Positions 7,275-14,764 of a stretch of DNA of 20,226 nt are shown in pieces. Under the pieces are notes generated by a model, which was given only the letters and a program-made list of their open reading frames with translations, did no database searches and was not told where the DNA came from. How positions within the stretch are numbered: the stretch's first letter is position 1; the number at the start of each line of letters is the position of its first letter. Origin of the DNA: a virus; IMG/VR virus record IMGVR_UViG_3300032046_000272, positions 1 through 20,226 of that record; one strand, 5' to 3'. The position numbers were made by a program, and so were the translations under genes.

Positions 7275-8348
7275 ATGCCTGTTAGATATGTCGCCACGGG
7301 GCGCACGGCGGGAACGGAGATCTCGAGCACCTATGAGGGGCGACACGTGACCCTCGAGGAGTCGTACCTGATTCACCCCTACCACGCGGACGCGTTGGTG
7401 GACAAAGGCGATCCTGTCCTATTCGCGGTCGGCAGTGGTTGGATGAATGGTGTTGGTGTGGCACTCAAGAGCGCGGCGGCCGCCACCGATCTGATCGCGA
7501 TCGACACCGAGGGTATCTGGTACCTGGACGTGACTGGGTGCATCTCGGATGGCTCAATAGACGGGCAAGCGCGGGCCTTGCATGCTGGCGACCCTGTCTA
7601 CATTCGGAAGGCCGGTGGCACCGTGGGTGATCCCGACATACTGAGCGGTGAGGATGATGCCCATAATACCGTGCCATTCGGCTACCTGTTGGGTGACGTG
7701 ACCGCGCATGTATCGACACATACGCTGGTCGCCGTCAAGGTTCACTGGGCTCCGAACTTCCTGGAGTCTATCAACGTTGGCTCCTACAGCACGCCGGCGG
7801 GACCTATCGTGATCGATAACCACGAGATCGACATCTCGGCGACAGCGAGGGCTGCTGCCGAGGCTGGGGAATCGTGGGGCATAGAGTATGCCTGGCTGAA
7901 AGCATACATCGGTCTTTCTGCTCCCCTCCATGCCGACGAGGACATGCACGGCATCTACATCCGGCTGGAGGACGACAAGCACGCGACGGGCGGCGACTTG
8001 TTCGCTGGCCGGTTCCAGACCCATGCCAACCACGCGGCGGCAGTCTGGACACGGCTCTACGGTCTGTACGTCGCCATCTCCAACGAAGTGTCCGGTACTA
8101 TCGCGGAGTCGATTGGCATTGCCATCGCGATGGGTGGAGCTGGTTGTGCTCCAACAATGCAGACAGCACTCCAGATCATGGGTGACGGAACGCTGAGTGC
8201 GGCCCGTCAGAGTTGGTTCCAGACTGAGATTGGCCGTGGTGCCGGCCTGAAGGCGGACACGAGCGCAATGGACGCGAACCTAACCCATAAGATTCCTATC
8301 GACATCGATGGCACGATCTACGCCATCCCTGTTTGCCAGTGGGCCTAG
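7275..8348 (+). CDS. Two-part capsid decoration-like protein
   Basis: A 357-residue protein at ATG 7275 with AAGGAGAA upstream. The N-terminal 155 residues are beta-rich and have features of DUF2190-like capsid cement proteins: GDPVLFAV, a GVGVAL strand, IDTEGIWYLDV, and GDPVYIRK. The C-terminal 200 residues form a second, Gly/Ala-rich beta domain (EIDISATARAAAE, GIYIRLEDD, IAIAMGGAGCAPT, ending in DIDGTIYAIPV) that I cannot place; it may be a surface knob or jelly-roll-like domain. Position between the protease and the capsid gene fits a capsid-decorating protein. The N-terminal assignment is moderate, the C-terminal one open. Confidence 0.65.
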   Translation: MPVRYVATGRTAGTEISSTYEGRHVTLEESYLIHPYHADALVDKGDPVLFAVGSGWMNGVGVALKSAAAATDLIAIDTEGIWYLDVTGCISDGSIDGQARALHAGDPVYIRKAGGTVGDPDILSGEDDAHNTVPFGYLLGDVTAHVSTHTLVAVKVHWAPNFLESINVGSYSTPAGPIVIDNHEIDISATARAAAEAGESWGIEYAWLKAYIGLSAPLHADEDMHGIYIRLEDDKHATGGDLFAGRFQTHANHAAAVWTRLYGLYVAISNEVSGTIAESIGIAIAMGGAGCAPTMQTALQIMGDGTLSAARQSWFQTEIGRGAGLKADTSAMDANLTHKIPIDIDGTIYAIPVCQWA

Positions 8349-10183: not shown

Positions 10184-10541
10184 TCTCGGACTGGTGCATC
10201 CGGCGCTGCTGAGTAGCCTGCCCGATCACTTCCACGACACATGCACCGTGCAGGAGGCAACGGAGACGCGCGGTAGCAATGGCGCGGTGCTGTCGGCCTG
10301 GGGCAACCTGGCGGCACATGTGAACCTGGTCTGCATCGTGGCGCCCGTGAGCGCCCACGAGCAGCACCGTGCGAAGGATACGATTACGATCGGGACGCAC
10401 AAGGCCATGTTGGCCGGCTACTACCCGGCGATCACGGAAAAGATGCAGTTGGTGGCCGGCGGCGCGACCTACGACATCGTCGGCGTCTGGCATGACAGTC
10501 TGGCGAAGGCGACGCATCTAGACCTGCAGGTGATCCGGTGA
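10176..10541 (+). CDS. Head closure protein (SPP1 gp16 / HK97 gp7-type)
   Basis: A 121-residue protein whose ATG 10176 overlaps the connector gene. The predicted beta-rich body contains TCTVQEATETRGSNGAVLSAWGN (about 23-45), then HRAKDTITIGTHKAMLAG and TYDIVGVWHDSLAKATHLDLQVI. This strand order with a terminal L-x-L-x-V strand is typical of small beta-barrel head-closure (stopper) proteins, which plug the DNA channel after packaging. The next gene starts inside its stop (GTGA). A precise family name cannot be given from reading alone. Confidence 0.75.
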   Translation: MGNLGLVHPALLSSLPDHFHDTCTVQEATETRGSNGAVLSAWGNLAAHVNLVCIVAPVSAHEQHRAKDTITIGTHKAMLAGYYPAITEKMQLVAGGATYDIVGVWHDSLAKATHLDLQVIR

Positions 10542-11209
10542 GCGGCCCAGTAGTCAGTCTGACGATCACAAACGTCGGTGAGATCATGGGCCAACTCAAC
10601 CGACTGACCGAGGCGACGCGGGGTGCTCAGTTGATGCGCGCCGCCACGGCGGGAGCTCTGATTCCAATGAACGCCGCTAAACGGAGGGCCCCCTGGCGCA
10701 CCGGAACGCTGCGACGCTCGATTCACATCGGCGGGCACACCGAAATGGCGAGTGATTTCAGCCCTGGGGAGGTGGGGCCGGATGGCAAGCCAGCCTATTC
10801 GGACATAGGCAGTCCAGCGCCAGAACCCACGAGAGTGGAGTTACTCATCGGCACCAATCTCGTCTATGCCGGCATCCAGGAATTCGGCGGCGTGGTGAGT
10901 CCGAAGACGGCGAAACTGTTGGCTATTCCCGTGGATGCCGCGGCGCGCACGGCTGGCAGTCCCAGGGGACAAGACCTCGTCTTTGTCAAAACTCAGGGCG
11001 GGCAGATGTTCCTAATGGACAAAGAGGGCAAGATTCGCTACAGTCTGCGGCGGTCGGTCACCATCCCGGCTCATCCCTACCTGCGCCCGGCGTTCGATGA
11101 GAATACTGAAGCGATCGAGCGGGAGATCGGCATCGTACTGCGCGAGGGCATCGAGGACGCATTGGCGGGTCGGGCCGGCTCTGGCATAGCGGCAGGCGGT
11201 GGCGAGTGA
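10538..11209 (+). CDS. HK97 gp10-like neck / tail-completion protein
   Basis: A 223-residue protein starting at GTG 10538, overlapping the previous stop. The fold signature is clear: N-terminal helices with AAKRRAPWRTGTLRRSI (about 46-62), then VYAGIQEFGGVVSPKTAKLLAIPV (108-131), FMLD-type strand near 156, and SVTIPAHPYLRPAFDE (177-192). The long insert after the EFGG loop is like that of Mu gpG/virion-morphogenesis relatives. These proteins complete the neck and join head to tail. The C-terminus ends in a Gly-rich tail (GSGIAAGGGE). The following methyltransferase GTG overlaps its stop. Confidence 0.87.
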   Translation: MSGPVVSLTITNVGEIMGQLNRLTEATRGAQLMRAATAGALIPMNAAKRRAPWRTGTLRRSIHIGGHTEMASDFSPGEVGPDGKPAYSDIGSPAPEPTRVELLIGTNLVYAGIQEFGGVVSPKTAKLLAIPVDAAARTAGSPRGQDLVFVKTQGGQMFLMDKEGKIRYSLRRSVTIPAHPYLRPAFDENTEAIEREIGIVLREGIEDALAGRAGSGIAAGGGE

Positions 11210-12234
11210 AACTCGCTGAGGTAATGCGGACGCGCGAGTCACTGCTGGGCTGGACGCAATCCGGCGTGAGTTGGCACAGCCTCTACCATGACTGGTCAGG
11301 GCGGCTGAATCGCACCGACTGCCGCTTCTGCTGCCGGGGGCCGCATCGCTGCTGCCAACCGGGCCAGACGCTCCTGCTGGTGCCTGGCGAGGGTGACTTC
11401 CTGCGCAGCCGTGGGGTGGCTGCCCAGGGCGATACCTATGTCTGTCTTGGCCGGGAGCATTGCCTGGATGCCCTGCGGCCAGTCTGCTGTCGGACGTATC
11501 CACTAGCACCAGACGCGGACGGCAACCTCTTTGCCGACACCGCTTGCTCGCAGCATCGATGGGCCTCCTGGCACTTTCTCTGCCAGACGGCCAAAGCCTG
11601 GCAGCACTTGCTCACCTATCCGCTGGTCCGACTGTGGCTGATAGGCATGCGGCATGGGCAGTACAATCAGCGGGCAGAGGTGGCGGTGGACGCGATCGAG
11701 CGACCCTTCGACGCTGGGTACACTGCAACCTTCGGCCACTACCATAGCGGCCGGCGCGTGGGGGAGTTGCTGCAGGCGGGCATCATCCGCTCGACCGACC
11801 GGCTACTGGTAACCGGGTGTGGGCGCGGGCAGTCTGTAGCGGCGGTGCGCGAGGAGGGCGTGGACGCCTGGGGCGTGGACGTCAACCCGTCCGTGGTCGC
11901 GGCGAGCGCTGCCCGTGGCTACGTTAGCCAGGGGGACGTGCGGGCTCTGGCTTTCGAGGATGGCTCATTCGACATGGTGCTCTCGGTGGACGTACTCGAA
12001 CACTTACCGGATTACCATCTGGCGCTGGCTGAGATGGCGCGCGTCTCTCGCTGGCGGGCCTACGTCGAGGTAACGGCGCTCGAATCTGCCGAGGACCTCT
12101 TCGAGGACCCGACGCACGTCGTCTTTCTGGGGCTGGAGGAGTGGCGGCGGGCAATTGAGGAGCACATGGCGGTCGAGAGCCTGGCGGAAGTGAGCGGCGA
12201 CAAGCAGGGCATGGTCTGTCGGGTGAGGCAATGA
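11206..12234 (+). CDS. YkgJ-like Cys cluster fused to SAM methyltransferase
   Basis: A 342-residue fusion at GTG 11206. Residues 36-126 are Cys-rich: Cys39, 42, 43, 49, 50 (DCRFCCRGPHRCC), then Cys80, 86, 94, 95 in YVCLGREHCLDALRPVCCRTYPL and Cys114. The CxxCC cluster and the RPxxCRxYPL block match the layout of YkgJ-type metal-binding domains (Zn or Fe-S). Residues about 195-340 are a class I SAM methyltransferase: motif I LLVTGCGRGQSV (200-211), the acidic ribose-binding Asp225 in GVDVN, and GDVRALAFEDGSFDMVLSVDVLEHLPD (243-269), typical of the Methyltransf_11 type. It lies between the gp10-like neck gene and the tail terminator, where no enzyme is needed for assembly, so it is an accessory gene. 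Substrate unknown. Confidence 0.85.
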   Translation: MKLAEVMRTRESLLGWTQSGVSWHSLYHDWSGRLNRTDCRFCCRGPHRCCQPGQTLLLVPGEGDFLRSRGVAAQGDTYVCLGREHCLDALRPVCCRTYPLAPDADGNLFADTACSQHRWASWHFLCQTAKAWQHLLTYPLVRLWLIGMRHGQYNQRAEVAVDAIERPFDAGYTATFGHYHSGRRVGELLQAGIIRSTDRLLVTGCGRGQSVAAVREEGVDAWGVDVNPSVVAASAARGYVSQGDVRALAFEDGSFDMVLSVDVLEHLPDYHLALAEMARVSRWRAYVEVTALESAEDLFEDPTHVVFLGLEEWRRAIEEHMAVESLAEVSGDKQGMVCRVRQ

Positions 12235-12617
12235 CCCTCGACGATGCCCAGTACGCCTACCTGAGCAGCGGGGTCGTCGCTCTGATCGGCACGCGGTTCT
12301 ACCCGGACAGGCTGCCAGAGGAGCCGACGCTGCCGGCGGTCACGTACCAGCAGGTGAGCACGCTACGGCTATCGCAACACACGGGAGCCGTAGCGGGCGG
12401 CCAGGTGCGGATGCAGTACACGGTATTCGCCCTGACACGCGCATCGGCGCGGGCGATCGCGGCGCAGCTCGTGGCCGCCCTCGACAGCTACAAGGGGACG
12501 ATGGGCGGCGTTGGTGGCCTGGCGGTGACGGTGCTCGAGATCGCCAACGAGATCGACCAGCACGACCCGGAGACGGACAGGTACCAGACGATGCTAGACG
12601 CAATCCTGGCCTACTGA
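12231..12617 (+). CDS. Tail terminator / completion protein (DUF3168-like)
   Basis: A 128-residue protein at ATG 12231 overlapping the methyltransferase stop (ATGA). It has the strand-helix pattern of lambda gpU/DUF3168 tail completion proteins: VVALIGTRFYPDRLPEEPTLPAVTYQQVS (14-42), RMQYTVFALTRASARAIAAQLVAALDSYKG (60-89), and a final acidic part with DPETDRYQTMLDAIL. Such proteins cap the growing tail tube and set its attachment face to the neck. The methyltransferase has been inserted between it and the gp10-like gene. Confidence 0.83.
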   Translation: MTLDDAQYAYLSSGVVALIGTRFYPDRLPEEPTLPAVTYQQVSTLRLSQHTGAVAGGQVRMQYTVFALTRASARAIAAQLVAALDSYKGTMGGVGGLAVTVLEIANEIDQHDPETDRYQTMLDAILAY

Positions 12618-12801: not shown

Positions 12802-12968
12802 TGACCAGTCGGAGCAATGAGTACCAGAATCCGTTTATCTGGCGCGGGTTGGTATGCCTGCTGCTAGATCGTGATACAGCCGTGGATGATGTTGAGACGC
12901 TCGACTATGAGGAATTGCGGGCCGAAATCTTGGCCCTGAAAGAGCGCCAGAAGGAGTGCGCCGAATGA
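12801..12968 (+). CDS. 55-aa hypothetical protein
   Basis: ATG 12801 overlaps the stop of the zinc-finger gene (TGATGA), with AAGGAG eight bases upstream; the frame ends at TGA 12966-12968. The 55-residue product has a hydrophobic, Trp-containing start (NPFIWRGLVCLLLDRD, residues 10-25) and an acidic helical end (DYEELRAEILALKERQKECAE). No family is recognised. It shares its C-terminal ERQKECA sequence with the preceding gene because both end in the same 22-nt repeat. Very short, but start, coupling and ribosome site are good. Confidence 0.55.
   Translation: MTSRSNEYQNPFIWRGLVCLLLDRDTAVDDVETLDYEELRAEILALKERQKECAE
12941..12962 (+). repeat. 22-nt direct repeat, copy 2
   Basis: Second perfect copy of the 22-nt unit, 164 bases downstream of copy 1. 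It again encodes ERQKECA at the end of a gene and again places AAGGAG (12951-12956) eight bases before an ATG (12965). Confidence 0.95.
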
Positions 12969-13225
12969 GTCGGATACTACGGTGCGACCAGTGCGGTCGG
13001 GAATGTCCCGAAGAGACGACAGACCGAGTCTGGTTGACTGTATCCTCTAGGCTGGAATTCGACTTCTGCGGTTTTGCGTGCCTTGCAAAGTGGGCCGCCA
13101 ATGTCGCGCGCACCGCGCTGATGCAGCACTATGATGAGCGGTGCGGGGAGAAACCGGAATCGGACCAGACAGAACGCTCGACTAATGCCGTATATGAAGC
13201 CAGCCATCCGGGGTCTACGAGCTAG
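12965..13225 (+). CDS. 86-aa Cys-rich zinc-ribbon protein
   Basis: ATG 12965 overlaps the preceding stop as ATGA, and AAGGAG lies eight bases upstream. The 86-residue product has Cys7, Cys10 and Cys14 (RCDQCGREC) and, after a beta-rich stretch, Cys35 and Cys39 in DFCGFACLAKW, a treble-clef or zinc-ribbon layout common in small phage proteins (CxxC ... FCxxxCLxxW). The tail after residue 60 is polar and probably disordered. Function is unknown; zinc binding is a good guess from the ligands. It is the last gene before an intrinsic terminator. Confidence 0.65.
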   Translation: MSRILRCDQCGRECPEETTDRVWLTVSSRLEFDFCGFACLAKWAANVARTALMQHYDERCGEKPESDQTERSTNAVYEASHPGSTS

Positions 13226-13340: not shown

Positions 13341-13568
13341 ATGGTTCGTTTATCTGCCATGGTTGCGGATCTTCAGAAGGTCCTCACGGAGCATGGTGAT
13401 ATTGAGGTACAAGTGTGCGTGCCGATGAGGAAAGAGGGCCACTCTGCCGTGATATTGGATTTGGCTCCTACCGCTCCTCTCCTAGAAAGAAACAGTCTAA
13501 GCGATCCATTGGCACGTGTTATCGCTGTCGATCTAGTGACGACACCGTGGGAGAGGATGGCGGAATGA
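13341..13568 (+). CDS. 75-aa hypothetical phage protein
   Basis: ATG 13341 has GAGGAGGG immediately upstream. The 75-residue product begins with a helix (LSAMVADLQKVLTEHGD) followed by a strand with IEVQVCVPM and two more predicted strands (SAVILDLA, RVIAVDLVT). This layout (helix, then GDxxVxV strand) is that of a widespread family of small phage proteins of unknown function often described as having a Lxx-L-x(4)-D-x-x-V pattern. It is the first gene after the terminator and its stop overlaps the glycosyltransferase ATG, so the two are probably translated together. Confidence 0.55.
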   Translation: MVRLSAMVADLQKVLTEHGDIEVQVCVPMRKEGHSAVILDLAPTAPLLERNSLSDPLARVIAVDLVTTPWERMAE

Positions 13569-14764
13569 GAATCATGCTCGGCAGCAATCCCCCCTGGCTC
13601 AATAGCGGCTATGGCTCCCAGACACGGGGCCTGCTCACCGCCCTCCAGGGGTTGGGCCATGACGTCGCCTGCTTCGCCACCTACGGCCTCAAGGGGGGCA
13701 AGTTGGAGGTCGGCGGCGTGACGATGTACCCGCGGTGTCAGGACATGTGGGGCGCGGACGTGCTCGCCGGCCATCTGCGCGACTTCGAGGCCGATTTGTA
13801 TGTCACGCTCATGGACAATTGGGTGTTTCCGCCCGACTACCATGACAAGTTCGCCGTGCCCTGGCTCTCCTGGTTCCCGGTGGACACCGAGCCGGCGCGA
13901 CGGTCGGCGGCGCGTATGGCGACCAGGGCCGAGTATAACGCCACCTTCTCGCGCCACGGGGTGCGCATCATGGCGGAGGCGGGTGTGGCAGCCGAGTACC
14001 TGCCGCTTGGCGTGGACATCGAGACGTTCAACCCTGGCGATAGGGAGGCGTCACGGGATTATCTTCAGTTCCCGCATGATGCCTTTGTCGTTGCCATGGT
14101 AGCCGCCAACCAGAGTTACCCGGCACGTAAGGCTTTCCCGGAAAATCTGGAGGCGTTCGGTCGGTTCCAGAAGCGCCATCCTGAGGCGCTTCTCTATCTG
14201 CACACGGAGATGCAGCCGACCAACCCAAACAACACGTTGGACCTCGACGAACTGCTCGAGGCCCTGGATATATCGCTCGAGTGCGTCGTGCGGCCCAACC
14301 AGTACATGTACGTCACAGGAGCCTTCGGTGATGAGGATATGGCCCAGGTCTACCGGGCGGCGGACGTGCTCCTGGCGGCGAGCTCCAATGAGGGTTTCGG
14401 GCTCCCGATCGTGGAGGCGGAAGCGTGTGCCTGTCCGGTGATCGTGACCGACTTTGCCAGCATGCCGGAGACGGCGGCGGGCAACGGCATTCTCGTGCCG
14501 GCCAAGTGCCGCCAGTACACGCGCATGGGTGCCTGGGACGTGCTGCCGGACATTGATGGCATCGAGGCGGCCCTGGAGATGGCCTACGGTTGGAGCGACA
14601 GCGAGCGGGAGATGCGTGGCGATCAGGGTGTCGCCCACATCTGGCGGGAGTATTCGTGGGACGTGGTAACAGAGAGGTACTGGCAGCCACTGCTGGAACG
14701 GATCGAGCGCGACGTGACGTTGGCGAAACTGGAGACACGACAGGCCGCGGCAAGAACGCGGTAA
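13565..14764 (+). CDS. GT-B glycosyltransferase, GT4-like
   Basis: ATG 13565 overlaps the preceding stop (ATGA) and has GGAGAGG upstream; longer frames would run over the preceding gene. The 399-residue enzyme has the N-terminal Gly loop NSGYGSQTRGLL (13-24) of the acceptor domain and, in the C-terminal nucleotide-sugar domain, AAASS-like turn plus EGFGLPIVEAEACACPVI with the EX7E pair Glu276 and Glu284, and TDFASMPE after it. The link YLPLGVDIETFNP (145-157) is the usual hinge. It would transfer a sugar from an NDP-sugar to a glycan, protein or base. Location between neck and tail-tube genes marks it as accessory; virion protein or host surface glycosylation are the main options. Confidence 0.9.
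   Translation: MRIMLGSNPPWLNSGYGSQTRGLLTALQGLGHDVACFATYGLKGGKLEVGGVTMYPRCQDMWGADVLAGHLRDFEADLYVTLMDNWVFPPDYHDKFAVPWLSWFPVDTEPARRSAARMATRAEYNATFSRHGVRIMAEAGVAAEYLPLGVDIETFNPGDREASRDYLQFPHDAFVVAMVAANQSYPARKAFPENLEAFGRFQKRHPEALLYLHTEMQPTNPNNTLDLDELLEALDISLECVVRPNQYMYVTGAFGDEDMAQVYRAADVLLAASSNEGFGLPIVEAEACACPVIVTDFASMPETAAGNGILVPAKCRQYTRMGAWDVLPDIDGIEAALEMAYGWSDSEREMRGDQGVAHIWREYSWDVVTERYWQPLLERIERDVTLAKLETRQAAARTR

Follow-up and report, generated by a model that had tools for sequence, protein, structure and literature searches.

A cysteine-cluster protein with a predicted class I SAM methyltransferase domain, inserted between two connector genes of a virus

The bacterial virus record IMGVR_UViG_3300032046_000272, of which the whole analysed stretch of 20,226 nucleotides is called the window here, carries an inserted gene in its head-tail connector module. 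Its 342-residue product joins an N-terminal cysteine cluster to a class I SAM methyltransferase domain. The reading that we favour, with a probability of about 0.45, is that of an acquired methyltransferase modifying the virion or its glycans, with a metal-binding front domain that distantly resembles YkgJ. The components, i.e. a methyltransferase, a Cys cluster, and a glycan cassette in a structural region, are already known.

Results

The fusion gene is nested in the connector module

The open reading frame at 11206..12234 (+ strand, GTG start, 342 aa) is a real gene nested in the head-tail connector module, and both its extent and its location in the neck module are exactly as given in the preliminary description. 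Its upstream neighbour encodes an HK97-gp10-like/Neck1 connector protein (10538..11209, + strand; Pfam PF04883, 2.2e-7; PHROG_5, 3.5e-15), and its downstream neighbour a gp17-like tail completion/tail terminator protein (12231..12617, + strand; PF11367, 9.1e-13; PHROG_347, 9.1e-10). The fusion gene starts inside the stop of the gp10-like gene (GTGA overlap) and stops inside the start of the gp17-like gene (ATGA overlap), which indicates that it belongs to the structural operon and is not a stray frame. An assembly artefact is unlikely, given these overlaps and a base composition like that of the module (GC 0.66, GC3 0.78).

About 80 related viral contigs were recovered with the capsid protein alone and with a six-sequence alignment. 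Many of them are short, and the insertion site itself could be tested in the 38 where both flanking genes were recognised; in all 38, the gp10-like and gp17-like genes lie 9-234 bases apart, taken as the distance between match ends, which identifies the fusion gene as an insertion between two connector genes. In L006, the relative that was read closely, the gp10-like and gp17-like genes overlap each other. The fusion protein was found in none of the about 80 relatives, either by tblastn or by full-sensitivity phmmer against 9,637 open frames.

The C-terminal half is predicted to be a class I SAM methyltransferase

Judged by its sequence, the C-terminal half (11740..12231, + strand) is a class I SAM methyltransferase, with a Gly loop (204-208), Asp225, GD243-244, SFD254-256, and D301PTH. 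Methyltransf_11 (PF08241) matches residues 203-282 of the fusion protein with 59.9 bits against a cut-off of 21.2 (E 3.9e-16), and the methyltransferase part as sole query gives a Pfam E value of 9.2e-17; the assignment proposed beforehand, with the HMM check suggested for this half, is borne out. Motif I of class I SAM methyltransferases reads (D/E)xGxGxG and is usually opened by an acidic residue. This motif and Asp225 had both been described as intact, which holds for the Gly loop (GCGRG) and for Asp225 but not for the leading acidic position, occupied by Val202, opposite which 3bus has an Asp in the alignment.

The closest solved chains of the fusion protein are Rossmann methyltransferases, among them 3bus (1.1e-9, whole protein as query) and the D-glucose O-methyltransferase 6uv6 (9.5e-6). 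Both are Methyltransf_11 chains sharing the Rossmann SAM domain with the fusion protein, whereas their alignments leave its N-terminal Cys domain uncovered. Likewise, in PHROGs and PADLOC scans with the whole protein as query, the matches fall in the methyltransferase part only. Substrate specificity is not readable from such generic Methyltransf_11 matches.

The N-terminal half carries a cysteine cluster that remotely resembles YkgJ

The Cys-cluster region spans residues 39-115 (11320..11550, + strand). The fusion protein has 13 Cys, at positions 39, 42, 43, 49, 50, 80, 86, 94, 95, 114, 126, 205, and 338, ten of which lie within a 76-residue stretch (39-114), and equal clustering occurs in 13 of 20,000 whole-protein shuffles. 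The region reads C39-x2-C42-C43-x5-C49-C50, then C80 and C86, then R91-P-V-C-C-R-T-Y-P-L100, and finally C114SQH117, so that the 9 to 10 Cys of the preliminary description are indeed ten and its two motifs, CxxCC and RPxxCRxYPL, are both present. This cluster is likely a metal-binding site, for Zn or Fe-S. Pfam, NCBIfam, and PDB sequence searches with the N-terminal half gave no match or noise, and PF08421, the zinc domain of sugar C-methyltransferases, had no match in the window record at E<=10. Single-sequence AlphaFold models of the fusion protein are of low confidence (pLDDT 37 and 38).

The N-terminal part had been described as YkgJ-like. The corresponding HMM check does not bear this out, PF03692 (cut-off 23 bits) having no match in the window at E<=10 while control genomes did match; the motifs and a shuffle-controlled alignment speak for it. 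YkgJ proteins were gathered from Pseudomonadota and Bacteroidota genomes, and 10 long sequences and 6 core sequences served to build profiles. Residues 30-135 reach a local alignment score of 26 on these profiles, below any family cut-off, compared to 15 +/- 2.4 for composition-matched shuffles (z about 4.7, equalled by 0 of 300), 15-17 for the reversed sequence, and 12-13 for the methyltransferase part. HMMER gives 7-8 bits, mainly from the RPxxCRxYP piece, and a few shuffles out of 20,000 score higher.

The elements follow one another in the YkgJ order: an N-terminal Cys group, C80, C86, RPVCCRTYPL, and a later C-x-x-H. Here C114SQH takes the place of the C-x-G-H that follows RPxxCRxYP in all 10 long YkgJ proteins from Pseudomonadota. 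The second half of the YkgJ pattern (C - C - RPxxCRxYP - C) is therefore present, whereas the first group, C-x2-C-C-x5-C-C, has neither the C-x2-C-x2-CC nor the C-x4-C-x3-CC spacing of YkgJ. This motif comparison is post hoc, the family having been picked from the motif in the first reading. The resemblance, as far as the sequence goes, is remote and at the level of motifs, and we would give common descent with YkgJ about even odds.

The fusion appears to be rare

YkgJ-type Cys clusters themselves are common, occurring in 215 of 249 sampled Pseudomonadota genomes. None of the inspected long-frame candidates from this phylum is fused to a Rossmann methyltransferase. The fusion was not found in 50,697 phage records by tblastn, where the N-terminal half gave only noise (E>=0.5), and this half had no match in 72,556 plasmid records. 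Against 398 Pseudomonadota and 198 Bacteroidota genomes it gave two marginal matches, both rejected: one (L122) shows no recognisable Cys cluster and was taken as an unrelated enzyme gene, and the other covers 34 residues only. Pattern scans (C-x2-F-C-C...CC, CC-x5-CC...RPxxCRxYP, and GPHxCCxPG), which covered 2.9 million contigs of viruses as well as 84,980 species genomes, returned no fusion, the matches, where any, being due to chance in unrelated frames. These short patterns are insensitive, so the outcome points to rarity and does not establish absence. None of the searches turned up a homologue of the full-length protein.

A glycosyltransferase gene lies in the same region

A GT4-type glycosyltransferase, the probable partner of the methyltransferase, is encoded among the tail genes at 13415..14764 (+ strand; Glyco_trans_1_4, 1.4e-13; PHROG_2170, 9.7e-30). 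Its N-terminal ~50 aa are unmatched, and the true start may lie further in. Both genes are located among virion genes, at 11.2-14.8 kb in the window; they are not adjacent, since the gp17-like gene lies between them, together with a small ORF and a gap. This small ORF (12956-13225, 89 aa) contains CDQCG and one more Cys and shows weak matches to DUF7576 and to a treble-clef domain (E about 0.003-0.008). No sugar-synthesis genes were recognised within the 20-kb fragment, and none of the 80-odd contigs recovered with the capsid protein has a match to the GT4 protein.

Homologues of this GT4 occur in few phages, among them phiPsal1, Mae-JY09, and TJE1. In phiPsal1, the order is capsid, glycosyltransferase, SAM methyltransferase (opposite strand), GT2, and neck; in Mae-JY09, capsid, hypothetical gene, glycosyltransferase, unassigned protein, and sugar epimerase; in TJE1, epimerase, FkbM-type methyltransferase, hypothetical gene, and glycosyltransferase, with terL following a few genes later. 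Sugar genes also adjoin the nearest phage methyltransferases (HTVC008M, Yong-DA). In mycobacteriophage Corndog, an O-methyltransferase and glycosyltransferases encoded between portal and protease were proposed to methylate and glycosylate the capsid (PMC4351075), and in Che8 and Rita, according to work cited in PMC11256854, glycans are bound to capsid proteins.

Corndog gp35-gp38, phiPsal1 genes 10-12, and TJE1 orf11-14 thus resemble the window in having methyltransferase and glycosyltransferase genes among or beside capsid, portal, or terminase genes. Nevertheless, the window methyltransferase differs from all three in its placement between gp10-like and gp17-like genes, and from those of phiPsal1 and TJE1, whose sequences were compared, in its Cys-cluster domain; the Corndog set is known from the paper only. 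The fusion had been called unusual for a phage structural operon, which agrees with its not being found in any collection searched, whereas methyltransferase and glycosyltransferase pairs in such regions have precedents in these three phages.

Discussion

We propose that an accessory ('moron') gene was acquired and dropped between two connector genes, with which it would be translated. The N-terminal ~120 residues would make up a Cys-rich domain that binds metal (Zn or Fe-S) and is distantly YkgJ-like; its most likely task is to give the substrate site its shape or to dock the methyltransferase on the target. The Rossmann domain would bind SAM and transfer the methyl group. Expression is presumably late, alongside the morphogenesis genes, which, together with the GT4 gene in the same region, makes a sugar carried by a virion protein, or that protein itself, the most likely target. 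Methylation of either is, from this genomic context, the most likely and best-supported role.

The Cys domain may instead be a structural zinc module unrelated to YkgJ, with a convergent RPxxCRxYPL, in front of a generic sugar or small-molecule methyltransferase, and we take this to be a serious possibility. Sugar C-methyltransferases do combine an N-terminal zinc domain (PF08421) with a methyltransferase, and the failure of PF03692 to match at E<=10, the Cys spacing of the first group, and HMMER bits reached by some shuffles are all consistent with such a module. It accounts less well for the order CxxC..CC - C - C - RPxxCRxYP - CxxH, which is that of YkgJ, or for a profile-alignment score that no shuffle out of 300 reached, and PF08421 had no match at E<=10 either. 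The stronger claim that the protein is a new architecture, in which a YkgJ-type Zn/Fe-S domain and a Rossmann SAM domain serve a phage in methylating its own virion (protein or glycan), seems unlikely to us. If true, a single chain would unite a FliB-like cluster with a classical methyltransferase, which would offer a handle on YkgJ function; we know of no defined function for YkgJ-type clusters apart from FliB. A natural YkgJ-methyltransferase fusion would suggest that such clusters help to recognise the substrate or take part in the chemistry of methyl transfer. FliB, which methylates lysines at the surface, binds a [4Fe-4S] cluster through CX4CX3CC, a motif compared with PF03692 in the same work (PMC8598068). 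Like the window protein, FliB links an N-terminal Cys cluster to SAM-dependent methylation, and given the similar Cys set and the position of the gene among virion genes, a Cys-bound [4Fe-4S] cluster could take part in methylating capsid or tail lysines. We consider this mechanism improbable: FliB has no Rossmann or SET domain (PMC8598068), whereas the classical Rossmann SAM domain of the window protein makes Fe-S chemistry unnecessary, and the Cys spacing differs from CX4CX3CC.

Morons often have their effect outside the structural operon that carries them, and the gene might be hitch-hiking in the neck operon while its product targets the host or nucleic acid, methylating RNA or DNA, for instance, or serving counter-defence. 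Residues 162-329 match PADLOC mad2 (1.3e-8), a methylation-associated defence protein, as this would predict; we nevertheless rejected a mad2 identity, the match spanning the generic methyltransferase part only and falling far below that of Methyltransf_11. No DNA-methyltransferase family of Pfam or NCBIfam was matched by the fusion protein, and the gene position and the glycosyltransferase partner point to the virion, which together make a host or nucleic-acid target rather unlikely. More improbable still is an inactive methyltransferase, with the protein acting solely as a structural or regulatory part of the connector. Val202 in place of the acidic residue of motif I is what such a protein might show, but the protein retains the Gly loop, both Asp225 and Asp244, and the SFD motif, and its domain score clearly exceeds the cut-offs; moreover, the relatives manage without the gene, whose product is therefore not structurally essential.

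An acquired methyltransferase acting on the virion or its glycans, as favoured here, would enlarge, by an insertion in the neck module, the small group of methyltransferase and glycosyltransferase cassettes in structural regions, which may alter the virion surface. The neck module also carries other genes in the relatives. In eleven of them (L048, L053, L059, L071, L073, L078, L090, L098, L100, L101, and L117), additional genes of unknown kind take up 1-3 kb, between the capsid gene and n1 or between n2 and the gp10-like gene, which makes the neck module a region of variable cargo. Across 18 extra-gene neck loci of the relatives, the 20 proteins scanned include no methyltransferase and no glycosyltransferase; the sole lectin-like domain among them belongs to a Laminin_G_3 protein of L117.

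Two contigs from sample 3300035701 (L002 and L201) show 99-100% protein identity to parts of the window and represent the same virus population. They span the region from the terminase to the decoration gene and that from the end of the glycosyltransferase gene onward, without the methyltransferase region. The window itself encodes a putative decoration/stabiliser protein at 7275-8348, of which another relative (L008:8186-9707) apparently has two tandem versions.
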